Source: Patiria pectinifera (Eukaryota > Echinodermata > Asteroidea > Valvatida > Asterinidae). Taken from it: DNA of 64,000 nucleotides. The translations under genes and the position numbers were made by a program. Location: assembly GCA_029964075.1 (NCBI GenBank), contig CM057140.1:9132643-9196642 (forward strand), written 5' to 3'. A model generated the notes under the pieces. It saw only the letters and a program-made list of their open reading frames with translations, had not been told where the DNA came from and did not search any database. Shown in pieces: positions 10,318 to 20,943 of this stretch (the stretch's first letter is position 1; every line of letters begins with the position of its first letter).

Positions 10318-10774
10318 CTCTACCAGATCGGCCGACAAATCGTAGATCGTTGAATCTAGCCACGTTGTTTTTCATGACGGCGGAGGCATTCCGAAGCTCG
10401 GCGCAATGATTTTCGTCGTTGCCGGCCGCGATGGACACCATGGTCCCGTCTTTAATTTCTCCCAGAGACACCACTTTGAAAGCCACGGGTAAACTCTTGT
10501 TACATCTCCAGTGGGACGGCAGCACGGAGCAGACGAAGTTGGGGCTCTCGGTCCGGACCAGCTCGCCGGGGAAATCGGCCAGGGCTTCGGAGAGGGACCG
10601 CTCCCCGCTCGGTCCCTTCAAGACCGGCTTTCTGCCGCCGCCGACCGAGTCGGCCATTTTGAGGGGGTTGTAATAATGGTTGTTACGATCTCTGTGATTG
10701 TCCTTGCTGATCAGCGGACCACTCAGCGGTGAGAGATGGCGGTCTTCCTGCATGATATGCATTTGGCACGGCAT
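10318..10774 (-). CDS. Runx: Runt-domain transcription factor (Runx), first coding exon, partial
   Basis: Runx proteins are nuclear sequence-specific DNA-binding factors that pair with CBF-beta and recognise TGYGGT. The exon encodes 152 codons plus one base. Residues 1-58 are an unrecognised N-terminal extension; the Runt domain starts near residue 60 ([20 protein letters not shown]) and continues to FVGRSGR, where the frame is cut by a GAG|GTATGTT donor at 10317-10316. This is the split seen in other Runx genes, from family knowledge. DNA-contact positions visible are R90 and K93 in HWRCNKSL and the arginines of [12 protein letters not shown]; the C-terminal contact loop is in an exon outside the window. 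The first ATG of the frame is at 10774-10772; Met5 (10762) and Met8 are alternatives. Upstream the frame stays open without ATG to a stop at 10876-10874, so the exon probably also carries 5' leader, resembling the proximal-promoter (P2) form of vertebrate RUNX genes. Head to head with Supt3h. Confidence 0.97.
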
Positions 10775-10905
10775 GGGTACGGTATTTTTTCCCTCCACAC
10801 GTTGGGGATAATTATGAACAAGAATGCCAACCCCGAAAAAAAATTGACTGGCGACCGCTTGACGGAAGCTCCTCTATACGCCAGACGCTGCTGAATTGAT
10901 ATTCA

Positions 10906-10929
10906 AACCACACCTCACTGTAAACCACA
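10906..10929. promoter_or_regulatory. Tandem RUNX consensus binding sites
   Basis: Two exact AACCACA heptamers (10906-10912 and 10923-10929) lie in the same orientation 17 bp apart, about 130-155 bp upstream of the Runx start codon. AACCACA is the reverse complement of TGTGGTT, the canonical Runx target. Vertebrate RUNX promoters are known to carry RUNX sites used for autoregulation, so feedback control is a reasonable inference. A seven-base motif is common by chance; the pairing and location are what make it notable. Confidence 0.5.
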
Positions 10930-11084
10930 TAAAACAACCCGCGCAGAATACTCAATGAGCGGCGGTGATCCGCTACACACTTGCGGTAATACTGGTAGCT
11001 AAACAGTTCAGAAAAAGTTTATCAAGACGATGTCGAGTTTACAAACACCGATCGGACTTTGAAGCGTCCAAGAACAAAATCTCA

Positions 11085-11092
11085 CTTTTATA
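11085..11092 (-). promoter_or_regulatory. TATA-like box for Runx
   Basis: The minus strand reads CGCGATATAAAAGTGAG here, giving TATAAAAG about 310 bp upstream of the Runx ATG. If used, transcription would begin near 11055-11060, placing the paired RUNX sites inside the 5' leader. No other core promoter element was tested, so this remains a candidate. Confidence 0.3.
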
Positions 11093-11470
11093 TCGCGAGA
11101 AGATCGAACAATTTCAGTCCTCCAGCGGTGATGGGTTGAAGCGGAATGAAGACATCACGCATACTGCGTCATCAAATTGCGAACCGATCGTAGCCTAGCC
11201 ACGTTCAGTTATCGATGCGATTTTAGATATAGCGCTCCACGCAATTTCGTTCGACTACGGGATGTGCCGTGAGTCACGTAGTGTGAATGAACTCTGTTGT
11301 GATGAGGCAATTGTTCATTGACTGTTTTGTATGGTGTGCGCTATGTGAGGGGGCGTGGTGAGAGTGTCGATCAAACTGTAAGGCCCGCCTACTTATGAAT
11401 AAGCCAGCGCGCGTGCTTCCGGTGGAAATTTATGAATGACTGGGTCGTGTCCTCGGCAGGTTAATCGGTA

Positions 11471-11600
11471 CTGTACATGTACAAAATGTACATGTACATG
11501 TACATGTACACGTGTACTGTACAACGCGCAGCGTCCGTTGGGAAGTACTTGTATGTACACGTACATGTACATTGTACATGTATATGTACATGCACATGTA
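11471..11600. repeat. TACATG-rich simple repeat
   Basis: Imperfect runs of the palindromic hexamer-like unit TACATG/CATGTA, including several consecutive copies around 11485-11510 and again at 11550-11600. Short copies of the same motif recur throughout the window. It produces spurious Met/Tyr/Cys-rich open frames. Confidence 0.85.
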
Positions 11601-19570: not shown

Positions 19571-19687
19571 GAATTTGTTCTCAATAAAGTATCGAAAGTA
19601 TATGGTATGTACTATATACTTTCGGTACTTTATTTAGAACAAATTCAAACAACTGAATTTGTTCTCAATAAAGTATCGAAAGTATAT
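19571..19687. repeat. 33-bp repeat in three copies, two direct and one inverted
   Basis: GAATTTGTTCTCAATAAAGT plus thirteen bases occurs at 19571-19603 and 19655-19687, and inverted with two mismatches at 19614-19646. The first two can form a hairpin. This looks like the end of an inverted-repeat element with a duplicated terminus. Confidence 0.8.
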
Positions 19688-19751
19688 AGTATACATGTAA
19701 AAATGTCACATTATTTAACCCTACCTCCTATGCATTTTTGCTAGGATGCAA

Positions 19752-20064
19752 CCTCAATCCTGCAAAATCCTCCAATTGCCTCCATGTAGAAATACATGTA
19801 GCATCAATCTTCCAAAATCCTCCGTTATTTCTTGAATGTGGTCCTTGGAGGGGTGACCACTGCCTCAATCCTGCAAAATCCTCCAGCAATCACTATCAAT
19901 ATGTTGAGGCAGAGCCAGGATAATTTCAAATATAATCTAGGCCTAAATTTATGCACGCTGAGCATAAACAACACACGGTCTGGCCCAAGACCTTGACCCA
20001 GTACCGTACATCCCCAAATCAGCTCACATTTTTGCCATATAGCCTCAATCCTGCAAAATCCTCC
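19752..20064. repeat. Four dispersed copies of a 22-bp repeat
   Basis: CCTCAATCCTGCAAAATCCTCC occurs at 19752-19773, 19863-19884 and 20043-20064, with a slightly diverged copy at 19802-19823. A partial inverted form (GGAGGATTT) follows at about 20080. Spacing is irregular (50, 61 and 180 bp), so this is not a simple tandem array. Confidence 0.85.
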
Positions 20065-20355
20065 ATTTTGCAAAGGGGATTTGGAGGATTTGGGAAGGTA
20101 AGGGTTAATGCAAAAATCGTGCTGCCAAATATGTTTAATTTCAAAATCTATACGGACCAAAGCATGGGCAGAGTTTTGCCAAGTGTTTAAAACCTAACAG
20201 TAATTTTCTTCCACATGTTTTCAGTGGTTGCTGTGAGTTCCATACATGCACTCCTGAAAATATAACTTGGCACTAGATAAGGCGACTTATGTGGCAAACT
20301 GATATGTTAAAAAAAAATTGGAAAGCATATGAACAAAAAGCAATTTTTTGTTAAG

Positions 20356-20591
20356 TAAGGCCCCCCCCCTCAAAAAATAGTTCTGCTTCCGGTTTCCCTA
20401 TCTACCCTGTTTTTTTTTAAATGAGGAAAAAACCGAAAACGATCAATTTCTACCTTTTACCCTTGACAACATGCAGACGCCTCCATATGATCGTACACAA
20501 AAAAAATTGGCCAAAAAAAATTTCCCTACCAACCTACCCTATTTTCAAATGCCATGTAATCGGAAGCAGAAGTATTTTTTCTTTTGGCCTA
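20356..20591. mobile_element. CTGCTTCCGG-ended inverted-repeat element, copy 1
   Basis: The left end reads TAAGGCC, a C-tract, then AAAAAATAGTTCTGCTTCCGG. The right end reads CGGAAGCAGAAGT, a T-tract and TTTTGGCCTA, its approximate complement. The internal text TTTACCCTTGAC and CCTATTTTCAAATGCCATGTAAT is shared with the copy at 51100-51300. Short, non-coding, MITE-like. Confidence 0.75.
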
Positions 20592-20821
20592 ATCTGCGAA
20601 TTTGTACAGCAAAAACTTAAAACAGCTTCGCATTTTGTATTCCAAATCATGGACAATTTCTCACTGAGAAGTTTCTTGATATCTTCCTGCCCATTGAGCT
20701 AGCTCTGAACAGCTCACATGGGGAAAAAATACACAGTGTGTTGATGTGTTTCAATGGAACATTAATTTAATTAATGTGTAGATGTGAAAGAATACAGATA
20801 TTTGTCCCCTTGTTTTACCAG

Positions 20822-20943
20822 CAGAGTAGTCAGACACCGCCGGCAGCAAGCCCAGATACAGGCCAACAGCAAAGCACAGGAGGTAGTAATGCCAAGGCGT
20901 CACAACAAAGGGTCAGCTTTGCTGCTGAAATACAGAGCATGAT
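20822..20943 (+). CDS. Supt3h: Supt3h (SPT3 homologue) coding exon 2
   Basis: SPT3/SUPT3H is the histone-fold subunit of the SAGA/STAGA co-activator that helps deliver TBP to promoters. The exon encodes 40 codons plus two bases. A Gln/Ser/Thr-rich linker is followed by RVSFAAEIQSMM at the end, matching the (I/V)SFATE(L/I)QSMM start of the SPT3 histone fold; the family continues with Y-x-L/F-GD, which is not in this exon. The donor AT|GTAAGT is at 20944. Exon 1 ends in phase 0 and joins in frame. The acceptor is TTTTACCAGCAG, a NAGNAG pair that could add or drop one glutamine. No following exon was found in the next 43 kb. Confidence 0.88.

Follow-up and report, generated by a model that had tools for sequence, protein, structure and literature searches.

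Head-to-head Runx and Supt3h genes and a 52-kb Supt3h intron in Patiria pectinifera

In the genome of Patiria pectinifera, a Runt-domain gene and a gene with SPT3-type exons are read away from each other, which raises the question of whether this is the Runx–Supt3h pair of other animals and, if it is, what keeps the two genes side by side. A sequence-only reading of the window (i.e., the whole 64,000-nucleotide stretch under analysis, positions 9132643–9196642 of its contig) had set the two genes head to head with their start codons 6.4 kb apart, had taken the pairing to predate vertebrates, and had proposed that Runx enhancers inside Supt3h hold it together. We examined a region of 184 kb consisting of the window, about 50 kb to its left, and about 70 kb to its right. 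The pairing is real and ancient, and being already known from sponge to human it is no new discovery; the interpretation offered by the sequence-only reading is partly supported and is for the most part already in print.

Identity and anatomy of the two genes

A search of the whole genome (613,548,705 bases in 1020 contigs) with the Runt profile PF00853, in which four candidates were scored, returned only two matches, both on the minus strand of the same contig. The first match (167.9 bits, profile positions 2–104) lies at contig positions 9142925–9143233, corresponding to window positions 10283–10591, and the second (53.4 bits, profile positions 93–129) lies at contig positions 9130903–9131013, 1.6–1.7 kb to the left of the window. 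The two matches are best read as two exons of what would be one Runx gene, and the profile search found no further Runt gene in the 613.5-Mb genome.

The first coding exon of Runx (10318..10774, minus strand) opens with an ATG at 10774, encodes most of the Runt domain, and ends after RSGRG at 10318, the very base at which the sequence-only reading had ended it, with a GT donor immediately following. The second Runt exon opens with GKSLTL and is preceded by a pyrimidine tract and AG. Intron 1, which separates the two, measures 11.9 kb as a whole, and the part of it inside the window occupies positions 1..10317 (minus strand). When the product of the first exon was searched with phmmer, it retrieved RUNX1 structures with a best E of 8.9e-49 and RUNX2 structures with a best E of 2.1e-46, and we take its N-terminus to resemble the vertebrate P2 type. 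Also on the minus strand, 17.9–18.7 kb to the left of the window, a C-terminal exon in which Q, P, S, and T abound stays open up to VWRPY and a stop codon. A C-terminal WRPY is a Groucho-recruitment motif, and the exon that carries it is provisionally assigned to Runx.

Supt3h encodes a subunit of the SAGA complex, and its exons were located with a human SUPT3H query, for which tblastn found a collinear series on the plus strand. Coding exon 1 lies at 17142..17222 (plus strand) and is joined in frame through GT-AG sites. Coding exon 2 lies at 20825..20943 (plus strand), has a NAGNAG acceptor with an alternative start at 20822, and ends in VSFAAEIQSM followed by a GTAAGT donor; for this exon, too, the end had been placed exactly, at 20943. 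Beyond the window, numbered on the window's scale and likewise on the plus strand with GT-AG sites, are exon 3 (72717–72801), exon 4 (79423–79621), exon 5 (82283–82486), and exon 6 (83152–83264), and it is these four that carry the SPT3 histone fold. As predicted here, exons 1–6 make up one open frame with no stop and with canonical GT-AG sites throughout. The sequence-only reading had staked its gene identification on the plus-strand peptide joining to an SPT3 histone fold, and in silico the two exons in the window do join in frame to the exons that bear one. Exon 7 starts at window-scale position 84606, and an exon with SIKPVHIREAYRRL comes next, near 85.9–86.1 kb.

Exon 4 is closer to SPT3 than to TAF13, as phmmer gave the human “Transcription initiation protein SPT3 homolog” an E of 2.6e-10 versus an E of 0.34 for TAF13. 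The profile PF02269 matched three places in the genome, one of them being Supt3h, and the other two presumably represent the two halves of TAF13. The second half of this TAF13-like gene is found on contig C328 (positions 104–256), outside the low-numbered large contigs. As a separate observation, intron 1 of Supt3h harbors, at window positions 17712–18253, a 210-bp tandem unit present in 2.6 copies and containing CGGAGTCG-like 8-mers.

In the flanks of the window, where the 108 longest of the 192 ORFs of at least 80 aa on the left and right were scanned, the left side holds ATE1-type matches (contig positions 9100471–9101671, plus strand) and a retrotransposon, and the right side holds a CFAP47-type match (contig positions 9253696–9253926, minus strand).

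The space between the genes and three RUNX-type sites

Runx on the minus strand and Supt3h on the plus strand stand head to head, with ATGs at 10774 and 17142 that are 6,368 bp apart; the Runt and SPT3 matches together with the in-frame exons confirm the arrangement and the 6.4-kb spacing first given for them. The stretch between the start codons (10775..17141) is 6,367 bp long. Inside it is a dispersed repeat of about 480 bp (window positions 13500–13980), copies of which occur genome-wide at 80–85% identity. Ten ORFs of at least 90 aa are present in this stretch, nine of them without a Pfam match at E 0.01 and one with a sub-cut-off match (E 0.0071). Within Supt3h intron 2, none of 93 ORFs of at least 80 aa matched Pfam at E 0.001 (93 of 94 were scanned, and shorter exons would escape a search of this kind). 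With 0 of 10 intergenic ORFs over the cut-off and 0 of 93 intron-2 ORFs bearing a Pfam domain, no intervening or nested gene was detected, and Runx and Supt3h are thus adjacent, with no third gene detected between them.

Directly upstream of Runx are three RUNX-type sites of the TGYGGTW type (10906..10988), which read on the plus strand as AACCACA at 10906, AACCACA at 10923, and TGCGGTA at 10982. The triple spans 83 bp and lies 132–214 bp upstream of the Runx ATG, with starts that are 17 and 59 bp apart, and it is the sole triple within 83 bp among the 105 RUNX 7-mer sites in the 184 kb. For a span and a flank that were both picked after the sites had been seen, uniform placement gives such a triple a chance of 0.089 anywhere in the 184 kb and of 0.0004 in the 1-kb Runx flank. 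Of 5000 Markov versions of the Runx flank, 3 contained a triple, and among 59 permuted motifs none formed one in the Runx flank and 18 formed one somewhere in the 184 kb. Shuffles of 717 bp reached the observed three sites in 11 of 200 cases for 6-mers and 4 of 200 for 7-mers, and shuffles of 1,217 bp did so in 31 and 10 of 200, respectively. Judged by the number of sites alone, this flank is only mildly unusual. The three may be regarded as candidate autoregulatory sites. We think it quite doubtful, however, that together they form a module through which a single-copy invertebrate Runx regulates itself, such that clustered RUNX-site autoregulation would be older than vertebrates.

The second intron of Supt3h and what keeps the pair together

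Intron 2 of Supt3h takes up the remaining 43,057 bp of the window (20944..64000, plus strand) and ends at window-scale position 72716, for a full length of 51,773 bp. Supt3h introns 1, 3, 4, 5, and 6 measure 3,602, 6,621, 2,661, 665, and 1,341 bp, making this giant intron about 8 times as long as the next longest delimited one (6,621 bp), and its earlier description as unusually long was right. RUNX motifs occur in intron 2 at 62 sites, a 1.34-fold density relative to the rest of the 184 kb that ranks 4 of 60 motifs, is equalled or beaten by 3 of 59 permuted motifs, and is reached by 2 of 30 shuffles. The RUNX-motif density of the intron is at most weakly raised. Elsewhere in the intron, the sole Rfam match in the window is a marginal tRNA-like one (33092–33164; 31.6 bits, the cut-off being 29), possibly a tRNA-derived repeat.

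The explanation that we consider probable is that a single Runx gene and its ancient divergent neighbor Supt3h are kept together by Runx cis-regulatory elements located between the genes and in the introns of Supt3h. Regulation would be directed at Runx, with Supt3h as the bystander. Runx enhancers in the shared space and in the Supt3h introns would tie the genes together, and a break between them would part Runx from its enhancers. With less weight, part of the control of Runx might be autoregulation through the three upstream RUNX-type sites.

Two other explanations have to be set against this one. If the pair persisted simply through inertia, in a genome that rearranges slowly, then intron 2 would be long only through repeats and would hold no Runx enhancers, and repeats are indeed there. 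A 525-bp repeat at window positions of about 44,750–45,275 has 38 other copies at 95–97% identity among the 40 candidates scored (from 12,739 first-look candidates for the 6-kb piece of intron 2 that was searched), and such high identity points to a recent insertion, which makes repeat insertion a rival reason for the length of the intron. The second repeat family, the one between the genes with copies at 80–85%, would fit as well. Nevertheless, the repeat content of intron 2 is judged from that one 6-kb piece, and inertia explains a linkage that extends from sponge to human poorly, such that we hold this explanation to be unlikely, if the stronger of the two rivals. The 525-bp repeat is also adjoined by a reversed, weaker partner that reaches to about 45,730. 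Much less credit still can be given to a shared bidirectional promoter, or co-regulation, as what holds the genes head to head. The divergent orientation would suit it, as would a CpG observed/expected ratio that is close to 1 or higher at the 5' end of each gene (0.99–1.38 at 10.5–11.5 kb and 1.09 at 17.0–17.5 kb). However, the ratio falls to 0.40–0.68 between 12 and 14 kb, and 6.4 kb between start codons is too far, the usual bidirectional promoter being far shorter. Runx, moreover, is a tissue-specific regulator and Supt3h a general SAGA subunit, which makes joint control an improbable reason for the two to stay together.

The explanation by Runx regulatory elements has the further advantage of agreeing with published work. 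RUNX2 and its bystander SUPT3H are described as sharing one genomic regulatory block (GRB) that matches the topological organization (TAD), with synteny from sponge to human (PMC5585340), and the idea that Runx enhancers in Supt3h hold the pair together is essentially this published model. Long-range RUNX2 enhancers have also been hypothesized at the locus (PMC5049763). When a regulatory region of the human locus was deleted in a chondrocyte line, RUNX2 P1 expression was up 3.9-fold, and SUPT3H and combined RUNX2 expression were unchanged (PMC6140783). Enhancers would be one possible cause of the length of intron 2 in P. pectinifera, and repeat insertion is another.

Comparison with known Runx–Supt3h loci

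With gnathostome RUNX2–SUPT3H (PMC3974841, PMC533870, PMC5585340, and PMC6140783), the locus shares opposite transcription and RUNX-type sites upstream of Runx. The vertebrate likeness drawn by the sequence-only reading holds for the opposite transcription, but no overlap of the vertebrate type was observed. The first exons of RUNX2 and SUPT3H (RUNT and SUPT3H in fugu) are interlocked (PMC3974841, PMC533870), and a distal P1 is present in gnathostomes, whereas the coding exons of Runx and Supt3h do not interlock here and motif searching revealed no P1-type exon. A search with P1 peptide patterns across all minus-strand frames of the 184 kb, a search run without a positive control and to which non-coding 5' exons are invisible, yielded one loose and unconvincing match for such a distal exon, at window position 39970. 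The neighbors in vertebrates include CDC5L and CLIC (PMC533870, PMC4236176), and tblastn gave no credible match to either in the 184 kb (best E 1.7 and 3.1). CDC5L-type (Myb_Cef) matches were found in the genome only on an unplaced contig (C330:21100–22522), with two of the four containing a stop, so that CDC5L may or may not be linked to the pair.

The three sites upstream of Runx also have counterparts. Gnathostome Runx1–3 P1 promoters carry tandem RUNX sites that serve autoregulation (PMC3974841, PMC4236176), and human RUNX1 has three RUNX sites in its 5'UTR (PMC4762634); in all of these, as in the sites described here, AACCACA-type sites cluster next to the start of a Runx gene. PMC4236176 gives the gnathostome sites as Pu/TACCPuCA, on what by our own reading is the sense strand, whereas in P. 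pectinifera AACCACA runs against the direction of Runx transcription and lies beside a P2-like first exon. Because of this opposite strand and the different spacing, a similarity of design to the P1 sites is all that can be said. In lamprey the tandem pair of RUNX sites is reported to be absent. No lamprey Runx gene is linked to Supt3h (PMC4236176), which indicates that the linkage is breakable.

Linkage of Runx to Supt3h in a demosponge, Nematostella, Capitella, and B. floridae has been in print since 2009 (PMC2674455), was repeated for amphioxus, anemone, and sponge (PMC4236176), and was likewise given for amphioxus (PMC3974841). The statement that the pairing predates vertebrates was, in this light, right and already published. 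Among the papers listed by our literature searches, no echinoderm or hemichordate report of the pair stood out, and we make no claim to a first report. Likened by linkage alone rather than by spacing, orientation, or intron sizes, the Amphimedon, Nematostella, Capitella, and Branchiostoma loci (PMC2674455, PMC4236176) each have a single Runx linked to Supt3h, as is the case here. To these P. pectinifera adds one further genome, with its exact anatomy, for a gene pair that ranks among the oldest known in animals, and with a single-copy Runx beside a 52-kb Supt3h intron it offers a clean test of whether bystander introns bear a regulator's enhancers, in a system that lacks the paralogues and the double promoters found in vertebrates.
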